Below are positions 1,136-62,306 of a stretch of 64,000 nucleotides of DNA, piece after piece. This DNA comes from Isoptericola jiangsuensis (GTDB lineage Bacteria; Actinomycetota; Actinomycetes; Actinomycetales; Cellulomonadaceae). The notes beneath the pieces are model-generated. The model worked only from the letters and a program-made list of their open reading frames with translations, did not search any database and was not told the DNA's origin. Both the position numbers and the translations under genes were made by a program. The DNA lies in the NCBI RefSeq assembly GCF_002563715.1, contig NZ_PDJJ01000001.1:124001-188000 (forward strand), written 5' to 3'. The stretch's first letter is position 1; every line of letters starts with the position of its first letter.

Positions 1136-2458
1136 CTAGGCCCCCGTCACCATCCAGGTCGTGCCGCGTGCGCGCAGGCCGGTGGTGAGGGCGCGGGCGA
1201 GCATGAACACGCCGGCGAACGCGATCCACAGCCAGGCGAGCCCGGCGGCGCCGTCGGGTGCGAGGGCGCGGACGGCGAGCGCGACGGGCGCGTAGGCGAC
1301 GAGCGTGAGCATGCCCGCCCAGGCGAGGTAGCGGCCGTCGCCGGCGCCGATGAGGACGCCGTCGAGGACGAACACCCAGCCCGCCATGGGCATGAGGACG
1401 CCGGTGACGACGAGCCCGGCGGTGATGGCGACGCGCACGTCGGGGTCGGTGCTGAACAGCGGCGCGATCCACCACGATCCGGCGGCGAGGATGACGCCGA
1501 TGACGGCGCCCGCGCCGACGCCCCACTGGAGGCAGCGGCGCAGCACCTCGCGGACACGGTCGGTGTCGGCGGAGCCGAGGCCGTGGCCGACGAGGGCCTG
1601 CGCGGCGATGGCGAGGGCGTCGAGCGCGAACGCGGCGAGCCCCCACAGGCTGTTGACGACCTGGTGACCGGCGAGCGCGGTGGCGCCGAGCCCGGTGGCG
1701 ACCCACACGGTGAGCAGGATGGCGAGCCGCAGGGACACGGTGCGCACGAGCAGGGGGGCGCCGGTGACGGCGTTGGCCCAGATCCCGGCGTGGTGGGGGC
1801 GCAGGGAGGCGCCGCGGCGGCGGGCCCCGCGGACCACGACGACGCCGAGGACGACCGCCATGGTGAGCTGCGCCGTCGTCGTGGCGAGGGCGGACCCGGC
1901 GATGCCCATGCCCGCGCCGTAGACGAGGGACACGGAGCCGACGGCGTTGAGGACGGCGCCGCCGGACGCCACCCACAGGGGGGTGCGGGTGTCCTGGAGG
2001 CCGCGCAGCACGCCCGTGGCGGCCAGCACGAGGAGCATGCCGGGCAGGCCGGGCGCGGACCAGCGCAGGTAGGTGACGGCGTGCGTGGCGACCTCGCCGT
2101 CGGCGCCCATCGCGGACACCGCCCACGGCGCGACGGCGGCGAGCAGCGCGGCGAGGACGACGCCGAGGCCCAGCGCCAGCCACAGCCCGTCCACACCCGA
2201 CTGGAGGGCCTCGCGCTCGGCCCCCGCCCCGAGGCGGCGCGCCACGGCCGCCGTGGTCGCGTACGCGAGGAACACGCACAGCCCCACGAGCGTGAGCAGC
2301 AGCGTCGAGGCGAGCGACAGACCCGCGAGCTCGGCCGTGCCCAGGTGCCCGACGACGGCGGTGTCGACGAGGACGAAGATCGGCTCGGCGACGAGCGCCC
2401 CGAGCGCCGGGACGGCCAGGGCGAGGATGTCGCGGTCGAGCCGACGCACGTCACTCAC
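1136..2458 (-). CDS. MATE family efflux transporter (DinF-like)
   Basis: A 440-residue polytopic membrane protein, the usual length for the multidrug and toxin extrusion family, which exports cationic drugs or metabolites by proton or sodium antiport. The N-terminus reads DRDILALAVPALGALVAEPIF with LVDTAVVGHLGTAELAG just after, the signature of the DinF branch. About twelve hydrophobic helices follow in two repeated halves. The GTG at 2456-2458 is used because a GGAGGAAAG ribosome binding site sits just before it; a longer reading frame upstream crosses the dnaB control region and is not protein-like. It is divergent from dnaB, and the 295 bp between them hold the DnaA-box-like cluster. The substrate cannot be read from sequence. 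Confidence 0.9.
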   Translation of the reverse strand: MSDVRRLDRDILALAVPALGALVAEPIFVLVDTAVVGHLGTAELAGLSLASTLLLTLVGLCVFLAYATTAAVARRLGAGAEREALQSGVDGLWLALGLGVVLAALLAAVAPWAVSAMGADGEVATHAVTYLRWSAPGLPGMLLVLAATGVLRGLQDTRTPLWVASGGAVLNAVGSVSLVYGAGMGIAGSALATTTAQLTMAVVLGVVVVRGARRRGASLRPHHAGIWANAVTGAPLLVRTVSLRLAILLTVWVATGLGATALAGHQVVNSLWGLAAFALDALAIAAQALVGHGLGSADTDRVREVLRRCLQWGVGAGAVIGVILAAGSWWIAPLFSTDPDVRVAITAGLVVTGVLMPMAGWVFVLDGVLIGAGDGRYLAWAGMLTLVAYAPVALAVRALAPDGAAGLAWLWIAFAGVFMLARALTTGLRARGTTWMVTGA

Positions 2459-2516
2459 CTTTCTTTCCTCCACAGCCTGCGAACAGCGAAGGCGCAGGTC
2501 AGAGGCGATCCGAGGG

Positions 2517-2616
2517 TTGTACACAGGAGATGTCCCCAGGTGTGCACAGGGTTGTCCACCGTCTGTGCACAGGGCGTCGGTAGTCTTCCACACCCCTCTC
2601 CACACCTGTGTCCACA
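2517..2616. promoter_or_regulatory. Cluster of DnaA-box-like 9-mers upstream of dnaB
   Basis: Compared with the high-GC DnaA box TTGTCCACA, this 100-bp stretch has TTGTACACA (2517-2525), TTGTCCACC (2552-2560) and GTGTCCACA (2608-2616) with one mismatch each. Five more sites have two mismatches (starting at 2530, 2540, 2563, 2584, 2596). Two of these contain the self-complementary TGTGCACA. It lies between dnaB and the divergent MATE gene, upstream of promoter-like TAGCGT (2647) and TAGAAC (2677). The sequence shows the motif density; DnaA binding is inferred. Confidence 0.5.
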
Positions 2617-2753
2617 GGCTCCGTTGCAGACGGTCGCGGGCGCGCCTAGCGTCGTCCCGAGTGTCGGTAGGGCACGGTAGAACGAGATCACGACGGCGAG
2701 CCGCAGGCTCGCGGCCGGGGTCGGGTGCGGCACGTGCCGACGAGGGGGAGAGC

Positions 2754-4121
2754 ATGTCGATCGAGGAGCTCGAGGCGGGTTACGGCTCGTCGTCCGGAGC
2801 CGCGTTCGACCGCACCCCGCCGCAGGACATCGATGCCGAGATGAGCGTGCTGGGCGGCATGCTGCTGTCCAAGGACGCCATCGCGGACGTCGTCGAGCAG
2901 ATCCGCGGCAACGACTTCTACCGCCCTGCGCACGAGGCCGTCTACGAGGCGATCATCGACCTCTACGGCCGTGGCGAGCCCGCCGACGCCATCACCGTCG
3001 TCGCCGAGCTCACCAAGCGCGGCGAGATCGGCCGCATCGGCGGCGCCTCCTACATCCACGACCTCATGGCGGGCGTCCCCACCGCCGCCAACGCCGGCTA
3101 CTACGCCCGCATCGTGCAGGAGCGCGCCGTGCTGCGCCGCCTCGTGGCCGCCGGCACCAAGATCGTCCAGCTCGGGTACGCCACCGACGGCGGCGACGTC
3201 GACGCCGTCGTCAACAACGCCCAGGCGGAGATCTACGCCGTCACCGAGCGCAAGACGACCGAGGACTACATGCCGCTCGCCGACATCATCGGCGGCACCA
3301 TGGACGAGATCGAGGCCGCCGGGAACCGCGGCGAAGGCATGACCGGCGTGCCCACCGGGTTCGCCGACCTCGACCGCCTCACCAACGGACTCCACCCCGG
3401 CCAGATGATCGTCATCGCTGCGCGCCCCGCAATGGGCAAGTCAACATTGGCCATTGATATTGCCAGGGCTGCCTCTATTAAACACCAGAAGGCGTCAGTC
3501 GTCTTCTCCCTGGAGATGAGCCGCAACGAGATCACGATGCGACTCCTGTCCGCCGAAGCGCGCGTCCACCTCCAGAAGCTCCGCAACGGCTCCATGGGTG
3601 ACGACGACTGGCAGAAGCTCGCCGGTGTCATGGGCAAGGTGTCCGAGGCGCCGATGTTCATCGACGACTCGCCCAACATGTCGCTCACCGAGATCCGCGC
3701 CAAGTGCCGCCGACTCAAGCAGAAGCACGACCTTCAGCTCGTCGTCATCGACTACCTCCAGCTGATGTCCTCCGGCAAGAAGGTCGAGTCGCGTCAGCAG
3801 GAGGTCTCCGAGTTCTCCCGCGCGCTCAAGCTTCTCGCGAAGGAGATCGAGGTCCCCGTCATCGCGCTGTCGCAGCTGAACCGTGGTCCCGAGCAGCGCG
3901 GTGACAAGAAGCCGCAGATGTCGGACCTTCGTGAATCGGGCTCGATCGAGCAGGACGCGGACATGGTCATTCTTTTGCACCGAGAAGATGCTTATGAGAA
4001 GGAGTCTCCTCGCGCTGGAGAGGCCGACCTGATCGTGGCCAAGCACCGAAACGGTCCCACCGACACCATCACCGTCGCGTTCCAGGGTCACTACTCGCGT
4101 TTCGTCGACATGCAGGTCTGA
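2754..4121 (+). CDS. dnaB: Replicative DNA helicase DnaB
   Basis: A 455-residue hexameric helicase that unwinds DNA at the replication fork. The N-terminal domain starts at about residue 20 (PPQDIDAEMSVLGGMLL). The RecA-like motor has Walker A at about 224-231 (ARPAMGKST), Walker B in LVVIDYLQLMSS, and the C-terminal QLNRGPEQR and DLRESGSIEQDADMV motifs. The ATG at 2754 follows a GGGGGAG ribosome binding site. No intein is present. Two stretches are much less GC-rich than the rest: 3431-3490 (27 of 60 bases G+C, by hand count) just at and after Walker A, and 3961-4020 (30 of 60) just after DLRESG. These are the two positions where inteins interrupt DnaB in other organisms. It is probably controlled from the DnaA-box-like region upstream. 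Confidence 0.97.
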   Translation: MSIEELEAGYGSSSGAAFDRTPPQDIDAEMSVLGGMLLSKDAIADVVEQIRGNDFYRPAHEAVYEAIIDLYGRGEPADAITVVAELTKRGEIGRIGGASYIHDLMAGVPTAANAGYYARIVQERAVLRRLVAAGTKIVQLGYATDGGDVDAVVNNAQAEIYAVTERKTTEDYMPLADIIGGTMDEIEAAGNRGEGMTGVPTGFADLDRLTNGLHPGQMIVIAARPAMGKSTLAIDIARAASIKHQKASVVFSLEMSRNEITMRLLSAEARVHLQKLRNGSMGDDDWQKLAGVMGKVSEAPMFIDDSPNMSLTEIRAKCRRLKQKHDLQLVVIDYLQLMSSGKKVESRQQEVSEFSRALKLLAKEIEVPVIALSQLNRGPEQRGDKKPQMSDLRESGSIEQDADMVILLHREDAYEKESPRAGEADLIVAKHRNGPTDTITVAFQGHYSRFVDMQV

Positions 4122-54822: not shown

Positions 54823-56217
54823 TCAGTCCGCCAGGAGGTCGACCGGGACGAGGGTGTAGCCCTCCTTGCGCAGCGCGCGGATCAGCGGGCCGACGGCGTC
54901 CACCGTCGACGGGTGGATGTCGTGCATGAGGATGTTGCTGCCGTCCGTGACTCGGTCCATGACGTCCTCGCGGACGCGCTTCGGGTCGCGGGTGCGCCAG
55001 TCGTCCGAGTCCAGGCTCCACAGCACGACGTCCATCCCGGCGCTGGTCGCGATGCCGCGCACCCGGTCGTCGACGTCCCCGTACGGCGGGCGCACCAGGT
55101 AGGGGCGGAACCCGGTGGCGTCCACGATCGCGTCGGTGGTGCTGCGCAGCTCTTCGCGCACGTCCGCGTCGTCGAGCGTGGTGAGCAGCGGGTGGTTCCA
55201 CGAGTGGTTGGCCACCAGGTGCCCGGCGTCCAGGATGTCCCGCGCGATGCCGGGGTTCCGCTCGACGTTGCTCCCCACCAGGAAGAACGTGGCGGGCGCG
55301 TCCTTCCGGTCGAGGATCTCGAGCAGCCGTTCGGTGTCCGCGACGGGGCCGTCGTCGAACGTCAGCGCGACGCACCTGTCGACCGTGCAGTCGACCCCGT
55401 CGGCCTTCGCCGCGGCACGTCGGGCGGAGACGATCCGGTCGATCCGGTCCGTCCACACCGCGCGGGTGGTGTCCTCCAGGGTGTCCCGCAGCTCGACGGC
55501 GGCGTCGCCGTCGACCTCGTCCGGCCCCGCGTCGAGGACCGCCGTGCCCTGCGCGGCAGCCTCGCCGAGGGTGTCCCGCAGCCCGGCGCCGACCTTCTCG
55601 CCCTCCAGGGCGTCGAGGGCGTCGCGGGCGTCCTGCACCGCCGGTTCCAGCGCGTCGTACGCCCACTCCCGGCGCGCCTGCACGACGGCGTCCGTCGCCT
55701 CGGCCACGTCCGCGGCCGCCGCGTCGAGGGCCGCCCGCGTCGGGTCCGAGTCCTCCACGACCTCCGCCTCCACCGCGGGCAGCGTCTCGGGGCGGAACGG
55801 GTTCGGCCGGGTCACGGCCTCGACCGTGCTCGTCGTCGTCGGGTACGTCACCGGGGCGTCCCGCAACGCCTCCGCGTCCTCCAGAGCGGCCGCCAGCGTG
55901 CGCCGCACCTTCGGGTGCTCCACCTGACCCCTGCTCTGCGTGAGCACCGGGCGGCCCTCGTCGATCGCGGCCACCACGTCGTCGTGACCCGCCGCGTACG
56001 CGGCCTCGGCGTCCGCCCGCGAGCCCGCCGCCGCCTCCTCCTGCACGGTGACCGCGGCGGCGTACCGCGCCTGCGTGTGCTCCCACACGCGGTGCTCCAC
56101 GTCGGCGGCGACGACGACCGCCGCCACCACCAGCGCCACGGCCACCACCACGACCCACCACCACCGGCGATGACGGCGGGCGGGCGACGGGTCGGGCGCG
56201 TGCGGGGTGGTGCTCAC
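54823..56217 (-). CDS. Membrane-anchored polysaccharide deacetylase (CE4) with long helical stalk
   Basis: A 464-residue protein. One N-terminal helix (about 19-38, WWWVVVVAVALVVAAVVV) anchors it with the rest outside. Residues about 50-270 are Ala/Glu/Asp/Arg-rich and predicted helical, a stalk or coiled coil. The C-terminal NodB domain (about 281-464) has all CE4 motifs: TFDDGP (Asp288, Asp289), NHSWNHP (His338, His342), RPPYGDVD, LWSLDSDDW and ILMHDIH. It probably removes acetyl groups from peptidoglycan. The GTG at 56217 has GGAGG upstream. It lies 118 bp downstream of the response regulator gene in the same direction, a possible target. Confidence 0.9.
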   Translation of the reverse strand: MSTTPHAPDPSPARRHRRWWWVVVVAVALVVAAVVVAADVEHRVWEHTQARYAAAVTVQEEAAAGSRADAEAAYAAGHDDVVAAIDEGRPVLTQSRGQVEHPKVRRTLAAALEDAEALRDAPVTYPTTTSTVEAVTRPNPFRPETLPAVEAEVVEDSDPTRAALDAAAADVAEATDAVVQARREWAYDALEPAVQDARDALDALEGEKVGAGLRDTLGEAAAQGTAVLDAGPDEVDGDAAVELRDTLEDTTRAVWTDRIDRIVSARRAAAKADGVDCTVDRCVALTFDDGPVADTERLLEILDRKDAPATFFLVGSNVERNPGIARDILDAGHLVANHSWNHPLLTTLDDADVREELRSTTDAIVDATGFRPYLVRPPYGDVDDRVRGIATSAGMDVVLWSLDSDDWRTRDPKRVREDVMDRVTDGSNILMHDIHPSTVDAVGPLIRALRKEGYTLVPVDLLAD

Positions 56218-56983: not shown

Positions 56984-58317
56984 GCCTGGCCGTCCACGGG
57001 CGTGGCCGCCACAGCGGGCACGTTCCACGAGGTCGTGTCCCCCGACGGCGCTCCTCGCTCCTGACTGACCTCCGGGCCGACCGGGAGCGTCACGACCAGC
57101 ACGAACTCGCCGTCTTCCACGTCGGCGCTCAGGTCGCCTCCGAGCGCCTCCACCCGCTCCCGCATGCCGATCAGCCCGCGGCCCGGGTCGATCGCGCCCC
57201 GCCCCGATGTCGCGTTGGTGACGCGCAGGCCGATCACGGCGGACACGTCCGAGAGCGTTATCCGTACCGGTACGCCCGGGGCGTGCCGGCGCGCGTTCGT
57301 CAGTGCCTCCTGCACGGCGCGGTAGAGCACGTACCCCTGCGCGTCCGGTACGTCCTCGCAGCGTCCCGTCAGCGTCACGTCCTGGCCGGCCGCCCGGGCC
57401 GCCGCGACGAGGTCCGCGACGTCGCACGCGCCTGGCTGCGGAGCGCGCTCCGCCTCGTCGCTGCGGCGCAGCACCGCCAGTACCTGCCGCAGCTCGCCCA
57501 ACGCCGAACGCGCGTCGGAGGCGATGGCGGCCAGGACCTCCCGGGTCGCCGTGTCCATCTTCGGGTGCGAGTACGGCGCCGACTCCGCCCGCACCGCCAC
57601 CAGCGACACGTGGTGCGCGACGACGTCGTGCAGGTCGCGGGCCAGCCTGGCGCGCTCCGCAGCGACCGACTCCACCTCCAGCGCGCGCCGCTCGGTGGCC
57701 GCAGCGGCGTCGCTGCGCCTGATCGCCCGGTTCGCCACGCGGATCACCGCGGCGACCCCGACGACCAGCGCCACGGCGGCGGTGTAGATCAGCCCCGCGG
57801 AGATCGCGCGGCCACCGTCGTAGTCGCCCGCGTTCACCGGGCCGATCGGGAGCGCGGCGGGCACCCCGGTGAGTGCGTAGAGCCACGCGATCGCCACCGT
57901 CACGACGAGCGGGACGACGGCGCGGCGCCAGGAGTCCTGCAGGACCAGGCACGTGATCATCAGCAGCGCCAGCCACCAGCCCCACACGAACGTGCCCATC
58001 AGGAGAATGGTCACGAAAGGCCACGCTGCGAGGACGGTCGCGGTCACCGGCCGTCCGCGGCTGAGCAGGACGGCCACGATGCAGCTCACCCCACCGAGCG
58101 CACTGACGAAGAGGCTGAACTGGTAGGGAGCGTCGAACCACGACACCTGGGCCAGCCATGGGTCGACGGGGAGCAGAGCGCTGCTCGGTTCGGCCACGTA
58201 GTCCGCGTACGGGATCGTCCAGATGAAGGGCGATGTCAGCAAGAGGAGGGCGAGCAGGCCCGCCATCACGGCGGACGCGACCCATCGACGGTCGGCGGGG
58301 CGGGCGGGCGTCGTCAT
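56980..58317 (-). CDS. Sensor histidine kinase (HPK7/NarX-like)
   Basis: A 445-residue kinase. The N-terminal membrane domain has about five to six helices (12-34, 65-85, 92-112, 115-128, 133-155, 172-195). The dimerisation box has the phospho-acceptor His230 in ERARLARDLHDVVAHHVSLV. The ATPase domain follows (YRAVQEALTNARRHA for the N-box, GRGLIGMRERVEALGG for the G-box). No extracellular sensing domain of size is seen, so the stimulus is probably sensed in or at the membrane. It is followed by its partner regulator. Confidence 0.94.
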   Translation of the reverse strand: MTTPARPADRRWVASAVMAGLLALLLLTSPFIWTIPYADYVAEPSSALLPVDPWLAQVSWFDAPYQFSLFVSALGGVSCIVAVLLSRGRPVTATVLAAWPFVTILLMGTFVWGWWLALLMITCLVLQDSWRRAVVPLVVTVAIAWLYALTGVPAALPIGPVNAGDYDGGRAISAGLIYTAAVALVVGVAAVIRVANRAIRRSDAAAATERRALEVESVAAERARLARDLHDVVAHHVSLVAVRAESAPYSHPKMDTATREVLAAIASDARSALGELRQVLAVLRRSDEAERAPQPGACDVADLVAAARAAGQDVTLTGRCEDVPDAQGYVLYRAVQEALTNARRHAPGVPVRITLSDVSAVIGLRVTNATSGRGAIDPGRGLIGMRERVEALGGDLSADVEDGEFVLVVTLPVGPEVSQERGAPSGDTTSWNVPAVAATPVDGQA

Positions 58318-61592: not shown

Positions 61593-62306
61593 ATGCACAC
61601 GTTCGTCCACCGTTACGAGCTCGACGAGAGCCGACCCAGCGGCAGGCAGTTCGGCCGCGACCTGGCGCTGCGCGCGCTGCTCCCGGCCGCCGCCCTGTGG
61701 TGCCTGATCGTCGGGCTCGGGTTCCTCATCGTCGAACCCCTGGGCGACCTGCCCGCCGGCGACGGCATCGAGGGCTGGTTCGCCGAGCGTCGCACCCCCG
61801 TCATGAACACCGTCACCGAATGGGTCGGCCACCTGGGGATGACGGAGTTCGTCATCGGCGCGACCGCGCTCACCGTCATCCTGGTGTGGTGGCGCACCCG
61901 CCAGTGGTGGTTCGCCGTCGTGCCGGCGCTCGCGGTGTCCCTGCAGGCGCTGATCTTCCTCACGTCGTCCCTGGTCGTGGGGCGCGAGCGCCCGGACGTC
62001 GAGAAGCTGGACGACGCCCCGCCGACGTCGAGCTTCCCCAGCGGGCACACGGGGGCGTCGGCCGCCCTGTGGTTCACGCTCGCGATGCTGGCGCAGCGGA
62101 TCGAGAACCGTGCGCTGCGCGTGACGCTGACGACGGTGTGCCTGGTGATCCCGTTCGCGGTCGGCACGTCGCGTCTGTACCGGGGGATGCACGGCCCGGC
62201 GGACGTGACGGCGGGCCTGCTCAACGGTGCGGTCTGCGTGGTGCTCGCGTGGGGCTACCTGCGCCGGGACGCCCGGCATGGCGCCGCGGCGGCCCGCACC
62301 GACTGA
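61593..62306 (+). CDS. PAP2 family phosphatase (second of two)
   Basis: A 237-residue PAP2 protein. Motifs are VVGRERPDVEKLDD (about 129-142), TSSFPSGHTGAS (about 146-157) and TSRLYRGMHGPADVTAG (about 191-207). The spacing is normal. It begins with no gap after the first PAP2 gene; the GGAGG in the end of that gene (CCGGAGGCCTGA) serves as its ribosome binding site. The two are clearly diverged, so they may act on different lipid phosphates. The short conserved N-terminus MHTFVHRYELDESRPSGRQF is cytoplasmic. Confidence 0.92.
   Translation: MHTFVHRYELDESRPSGRQFGRDLALRALLPAAALWCLIVGLGFLIVEPLGDLPAGDGIEGWFAERRTPVMNTVTEWVGHLGMTEFVIGATALTVILVWWRTRQWWFAVVPALAVSLQALIFLTSSLVVGRERPDVEKLDDAPPTSSFPSGHTGASAALWFTLAMLAQRIENRALRVTLTTVCLVIPFAVGTSRLYRGMHGPADVTAGLLNGAVCVVLAWGYLRRDARHGAAAARTD

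Follow-up and report, generated by a model that had tools for sequence, protein, structure and literature searches.

A Phased Array of DnaA-Box-Like Sites Ahead of dnaB in Isoptericola jiangsuensis as a Probable DnaA-Bound Regulatory Region

The gene for the replicative helicase, dnaB, is preceded in Isoptericola jiangsuensis by a dense array of DnaA-box-like sites, and sequence comparisons make it very likely that this cluster is a regulatory region of the dnaB promoter that is bound by DnaA. DnaA binding upstream of dnaB has been published for mycobacteria, and thus the kind of site is already known. What is added here is a phased architecture found throughout the class, the constant register that it keeps with the predicted -35 hexamer, and an additional element, GCAGGTCA. 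The region was originally singled out in a stretch of 64,000 nucleotides (C1:124001-188000, called the window hereafter) from a genome of 4,041,252 bases in a single contig. Positions of promoter features are those of the window, and positions at or beyond oriC, as well as those of whole-genome matches, are those of the genome.

Results

An array of DnaA-box-like sites ahead of dnaB

The original prediction counted at least eight 9-mers close to TTGTCCACA, three of them with a single mismatch, within 100 bp ahead of dnaB, and held that no such clustering occurs elsewhere in the window. Both statements are borne out. Positions 2517-2616 carry eight 9-mers on the forward strand that differ from TTGTCCACA in no more than two letters, namely three with one mismatch, five with two, and none that is perfect (Table 1). 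Together with two reverse readings of the palindromic TGTGCACA, they make this the densest 100 bp of the window, with 10 box positions. When the window was scanned in 150-bp segments at 10-bp steps, the array yielded 10 matches versus at most three anywhere else (the next densest place lies near 4000), and 200 dinucleotide shuffles of the whole window reached a maximum of five per 100 bp. The window total of 84 matches is close to the shuffled mean of 86.4 (s.d. 9.1), and it is therefore the clustering of the boxes, not their number, that is special. A cluster of boxes beyond chance expectation upstream of a gene is one hallmark of a DnaA-regulated promoter.

Table 1. Positions of features at the dnaB promoter, numbered within the window
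Feature	Sequence	Position	Strand	Remarks
Divergent gene, taken to encode a MATE-type transporter		1136..2458	-	start GTG at 2458
Solo upstream "anchor" box	TCCTCCACA	2466..2474	+	2 mismatches; overlaps likely Shine-Dalgarno of divergent gene
Conserved non-DnaA motif	GCAGGTCAGA	2494..2503	+	identical 10-mer in own oriC
DnaA-box-like site	TTGTACACA	2517..2525	+	1 mismatch
Weak box	ATGTCCCCA	2530..2538	+	2 mismatches
Box	GTGTGCACA	2540..2548	+	2 mismatches; overlaps palindrome TGTGCACA
Box	TTGTCCACC	2552..2560	+	1 mismatch
Box	CTGTGCACA	2563..2571	+	2 mismatches; overlaps palindrome TGTGCACA
Weak box	TCTTCCACA	2584..2592	+	2 mismatches; 21 bp past previous box, i.e., one empty slot
Weak box	CTCTCCACA	2596..2604	+	2 mismatches
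Box	GTGTCCACA	2608..2616	+	1 mismatch; final box ahead of -35
Predicted -35 hexamer	TTGCAG	2624..2629	+	starts 16 bp past start of last box
Predicted -10 hexamer	TAGCGT	2647..2652	+	17-bp spacer
dnaB, replicative helicase		2754..4121	+	455 aa

A scan of the whole genome and a comparison with oriC, both proposed along with the original prediction, point in the same direction. The pattern SCACA-N5-8-SCACA-N5-8-SCACA occurs at two places in the 4.04 Mb, at oriC (57739-57765) and in the array (126588-126616), although the same pattern reversed, used as a control, gave 14 matches, and hence composition alone does not make the triple pattern rare. In the organism's own oriC region, the densest 100 bp contains five box positions versus 10 at dnaB. 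With up to two mismatches allowed, the array has eight boxes versus 14 in oriC, but they are packed more densely. Some of the array's box variants (GTGTCCACA and TTGTCCACC) are also used in oriC, and a single gene in the genome encodes the DnaA box-binding domain (PF08299).

As had been claimed, the cluster does not adjoin dnaA: none was seen in the part of the window that was read, and the organism's own dnaA and oriC lie 69 kb away. The placement of boxes at a distance from dnaA is real, but it is less surprising than first argued, because DnaA boxes in promoters outside oriC have been published. It is hardly credible that the cluster is a secondary or relic replication origin, even though dense boxes beside a replication gene might suggest one. 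An ordinary oriC is present between dnaA and dnaN at about 57.6 kb of the genome, whereas the dnaB cluster is located beside neither gene, and an AT-rich unwinding region is absent upstream of dnaB. The upstream region has 66% G+C, and its lowest value per 40 bp is 55%, which is equaled in 106 of 434 window tiles, versus 45% at oriC. GC skew, calculated over 6 kb only, becomes negative within dnaB and returns to positive values at about 4.5 kb, tracking gene changes, and so speaks neither for nor against an origin.

The dnaB gene itself is 92% identical to those of Isoptericola sp. AK164 and of an Isoptericola metagenome-assembled genome. In two stretches of the gene, 3411-3509 and 3951-4040 (about codons 220-252 and 400-429), the G+C content at third codon positions is low, falling in 12-codon segments to 0.42 and 0.33, respectively, versus 0.89 overall. 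Intein-like interruptions of dnaB in several other Isoptericola genomes sit at these same two places, with an insert of 1281 bp at the second site in three genomes (L040, L042, and L102) and an apparent 438-bp insert at the first in another (L113). The uninterrupted gene may thus carry the footprints of past inteins.

Conservation of the array

For each relative, the 600 bp upstream of dnaB were searched for the best 150-bp cluster, which was then scored against 100 dinucleotide shuffles. Among 80 named relatives with dnaB, one (L053) was left out with only 66 bases upstream, and in all 79 usable loci the cluster was matched by at most one shuffle in 100. An even draw from the phylum contained 36 further members of the order or class (L131-L166), a set that may share species with the first, and every one of them gave the same result. 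The idea that related genomes might lack the motif, raised along with the original prediction, therefore did not hold within the class, which we take to be Actinomycetes. Outside the class the cluster is patchy, with 13 of 33 genomes at the same threshold, a proportion that is no survey of other classes, the genomes having been picked from the stronger dnaB matches on usable contigs. Conservation at the same gene in relatives is a second property of a DnaA-regulated promoter.

Within the genus, the triple-SCACA pattern is present at the dnaB promoter in all 18 Isoptericola genomes (our own and 17 further ones). A rule that would confine this pattern to oriC and dnaB throughout the genus was rejected; it is true of our genome, but the relatives have further matches. 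Away from dnaB, seven of the 18 have runs of GCACA at 13-bp steps, a step unlike that of DnaA arrays (for example, G002:C1:264227-264270, with single places in G004, G010, G011, G014, G015, and G017). In 12 of the 18, a near-identical triple string like CCACAGCAGCGGCCACATGATCGTCCACA is likewise found away from dnaB, perhaps within a conserved gene (for example, G006:C1:2239524-2239552).

Spacing of the boxes and phase with the promoter

The geometry of the array was examined in 41 representatives, about one per genus (two each for Cellulomonas and Nocardioides, with other repeats of genera possible), among which our genome is L017. Distances between forward boxes peak at 11-12, 21-23, 32-33, 44-45, 54-56, 65, 76, and 87 bp, with hardly any at 15-19, 25-30, 37-41, 48-52, or 58-63 bp. 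A period of 10.90 bp fits these distances best (R 0.65); when equal numbers of sites were placed at random 500 times, R did not exceed 0.15. The most common steps, 11-12 bp, correspond to gaps of 2-3 bp, and our array consists of 10- to 13-bp steps plus one of 21 bp. In E. coli, DnaA in vivo favors pairs of boxes with gaps of 2-3 bp, and one added base pair between paired boxes strongly reduces binding (PMC11317965). By this rule, the spacing seen here fits cooperative DnaA binding.

It is quite improbable that some other DNA-binding protein reads the sites and that their likeness to DnaA boxes is incidental. Several boxes (GTGTGCACA, CTGTGCACA, and TTGTACACA) do have G or A at position 5, unlike the consensus, but similar variants (TCGTGCACA and TTGTACCCA) are present in the organism's own oriC. 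The gaps of 2-3 bp fit DnaA (spacing according to PMC11317965), and in two mycobacteria the region upstream of dnaB is bound by DnaA (PMC7738170).

The array also appears to be registered with the predicted promoter. Across Isoptericola and four neighboring loci, two features stand out from the other conserved columns, the cores of the boxes and, following the final box, a TTGC-N-TAGCGT-like promoter. A promoter-like match follows the array in 25 of the 41 representatives; in the other 16, no match of the form searched for was found. In all 25, the -35 element starts 16-18, 27-29, or 38-39 bp past the start of the last box. When the flanks were shuffled, a promoter-like match was obtained in at most six representatives, and nearly all such matches were in phase (mean 4.1 of 4.3). 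These are apparently left-over real promoters, and the control thus supports the presence of the promoter better than its phase.

A solo box and a second motif

Upstream of the array are a solo box, TCCTCCACA, and the motif GCAGGTCAGA. In our genome the first box of the array, TTGTACACA, starts 51 bp past the solo box, and the distance from the start of the solo box to the C of CAGGTCA is 29 bp. A fixed distance of 65 bp between the solo box and the array was considered and rejected; although frequent (18 of 41 representatives), it is just one of several helical steps. The automatic registration of box tracks is imperfect and served as a guide only.

The sequence GCAGGTCA is found between the solo box and the array in our genome and in Puerhibacterium, Antribacter, Promicromonospora, and Myceligenerans, and also in Cellulosimicrobium, Ornithinimicrobium, Nocardioides, Marmoricola, and several other genera, with some of the solo boxes in this composite counted at three mismatches. 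Exact GCAGGTCA sites number 17 among the 41 representatives, and for 11 of them a box with no more than two mismatches begins 28-30 bp ahead of the C of CAGGTCA, versus a mean of 1.1 and at most five in a random-position control. If one mismatch to the motif is allowed, 30 representatives can be compared. In 14 of these a box starts at -29, and the boxes of the array recur at +35 to +37, +46/47, +58/59, +69, +80, +90, +101/102, and +114 relative to the motif. Across all 18 Isoptericola genomes, the pattern CACA-N19-22-CAGGTCA-N34-44-CACA matches the dnaB promoter in 14 and one other place; the four genomes lacking a match at dnaB have an altered motif.

A sequence-only profile of the composite was built from 19 aligned promoters and applied to 38 whole genomes in which dnaB had been located. 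Its best match in the genome falls at the dnaB promoter in at least 26 of the 38, including 24 of 25 genomes outside family f7, a family that is probably mycobacteria-like, and at least two of 13 within it. The 12 misses comprise 11 genomes of f7 and one other (G232), and three genomes for which the top match was not listed (G051, G224, and G252) were counted among them. For genomes that had not entered the profile, the best match is at dnaB in at least 19 of 31, of which 10 share a genus with a profile member (nine of genus g9, and G006). In our genome the dnaB promoter scores 83.5 bits, versus 21.7 for oriC and 21.3 for a place at 703481.

Lower scores, near the noise and comparable to those of various other places, were obtained upstream of gyrB (61997-62066, 17.0) and upstream of dnaA (55987-56089, 15.9). 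Both regions lie outside the window and have box-like sequences of their own. Upstream of gyrB (C1:62000-62020), the boxes TTCTCCACA and TTTTCCACA are 12 bp apart on the minus strand. Upstream of dnaA (C1:55986-56093), there are five DnaA-like boxes, and a CAGGTCA starts 54 bp before the first.

Candidates for a possible second factor

The 10-mer GCAGGTCAGA occurs 12 times in the genome, and two of these copies are at oriC (57897-57906, minus strand) and at the dnaB promoter. In all four Isoptericola oriC stretches examined, CGCAGGTCAG lies 323-335 bp past the end of dnaA. Ten stretches following dnaA were taken from other families, of which one (L205) was too short; in the nine used, no motif of the CGCAGGTCAG type was seen at that place. 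Exact copies of CAGGTCA are found in other contexts within 600 bp of the end of dnaA in two of the nine (L204 and L209), and further away, probably in dnaN, in three. The motif in oriC was thus seen for Isoptericola, and a second factor shared between the two sites is accordingly a hypothesis for this genus. We tentatively suggest that the dnaB promoter might be a fixed composite throughout the class, made up of a solo DnaA box, a site for a second protein (GCAGGTCAG), and an array phased against the -35 element, and that the second protein might also act at the Isoptericola oriC, where with DnaA it could set both origin firing and helicase supply. Among the matches listed in a literature search for CAGGTCA, nothing relevant was evident from titles or the beginnings of abstracts.

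The motif could instead belong to the promoter of the divergent gene, which we presume to encode a MATE-type transporter from its original annotation. This seems doubtful. The motif is 37 bp from the start of that gene here, and all representatives in which the gene was found have it in divergent orientation. However, for motifs that are in register with an array, the distance to the extrapolated MATE-type start ranges from 37 to 234 bp (strain KH10, L055, was left out of this range, its motif being out of register with any array), and the distances to the solo box and the array are nearly fixed. By eye, no sequence resembling a -10 element is present 17 bp beyond the motif on the MATE-type strand. 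The variable distance to the MATE-type gene indicates that the motif goes with the dnaB element.

If a second protein does recognize this part of the dnaB element, the response regulator MtrA is one candidate, albeit an improbable one. In M. tuberculosis and Streptomyces venezuelae, the targets of MtrA include oriC, dnaA, and dnaN (PMC5487470), dnaB is among the listed M. tuberculosis MtrA targets (PMC11215152), and some Isoptericola copies of the motif read GGTCACAG, close to the MtrA sequence GTnAC. Most copies, however, lack the C of GTnAC, and dnaB is absent from the main text of two S. venezuelae MtrA papers. When GCAGGTCA was compared by eye with the direct repeat of 7-mers bound by MtrA, GTCA was there, the next C was mostly missing, and a clear 11-bp repeat was not seen.

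Discussion

Three readings were originally offered for the cluster: a DnaA-controlled dnaB promoter, a DnaA-titrating site, and a secondary origin-like element. The last finds no support, since an AT-rich unwinding region is lacking. The first gains from the conservation of the cluster, its phasing with the -35 element, the single gene for a DnaA box-binding domain, and the mycobacterial binding data. In M. tuberculosis, five regions of the genome, including one upstream of dnaB, were enriched with purified DnaA; homologs of these regions were found by DnaA ChIP-seq in M. smegmatis; and an M. tuberculosis DnaA mutant showed weaker binding at the dnaB promoter and under-expressed dnaB (PMC7738170).

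A plausible mechanism can be outlined for such a promoter. DnaA, probably in its ATP form, would bind cooperatively along one face of the helix to eight or nine weak boxes. The last box lies just upstream of the predicted -35 element (TTGCAG, 17 bp, TAGCGT) in fixed phase, and DnaA bound there might touch RNA polymerase. This contact would change dnaB transcription, with activation more likely than repression, a sign that is suggested by the one mycobacterial mutant described above. The supply of replicative helicase could in this way be tied to the level of active DnaA near initiation. The solo box, which precedes the array by about 50 bp, and the intervening GCAGGTCA suggest that a second protein might shape or modulate the complex.

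The second reading, that the array mainly titrates or converts DnaA after an early duplication and that regulation of dnaB is secondary, is unlikely but deserves some weight. Its boxes are fewer than those of oriC but more densely packed. The distance between dnaB and dnaA is 69 kb here and ranges from 26 to 91 kb across 11 genomes including our own (two of these distances assume circular contigs, and three further genomes with dnaA located were left out). With dnaB this close to dnaA, the site would duplicate early after initiation, which gives room for a titration role. In E. coli, datA and DARS are clusters of DnaA boxes outside the origin that are combined with a site for another protein, and the composite with a second motif is reminiscent of them. 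The cluster here differs in adjoining the dnaB promoter, and a helical phase with the dnaB -35 element would be needless for a pure sink. Titration of DnaA as a side effect of a DnaA-controlled promoter is possible.

For the promoter reading, the main gain is to move from DnaA peaks in two mycobacteria to a promoter architecture found across a class. This architecture predicts which bases matter and what spacing is required, and it makes the activation of helicase supply by DnaA directly testable. Furthermore, GCAGGTCA, common to the dnaB promoter and oriC in the genus, could serve as bait for an actinobacterial replication regulator. No description of a fixed geometry with a second motif across the class was found in the open-access literature searched, although Streptomyces work on DnaA-box clusters from 2006 might overlap.

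The closest known parallel is the dnaB region of M. tuberculosis and M. smegmatis (PMC7738170), in which DnaA is bound upstream of dnaB as it is predicted from sequence to be here. The phased geometry, the solo box, and GCAGGTCA are features of the present promoters that are not part of the mycobacterial description in the available portion of that report. Similarly, the presumably mycobacteria-like f7 genomes have box clusters upstream of dnaB, yet the composite profile ranks dnaB first in as few as two of the 13, a lower bound. The double boxes of E. coli (PMC11317965) have the same gaps of 2-3 bp, but they come in pairs, whereas the present array lines up eight or nine boxes and leaves a single slot empty. 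In Caulobacter, a member of a distant phylum with which the mycobacterial result is said to agree (cited in PMC7738170), DnaA is likewise reported upstream of dnaB, as is proposed here for Isoptericola.
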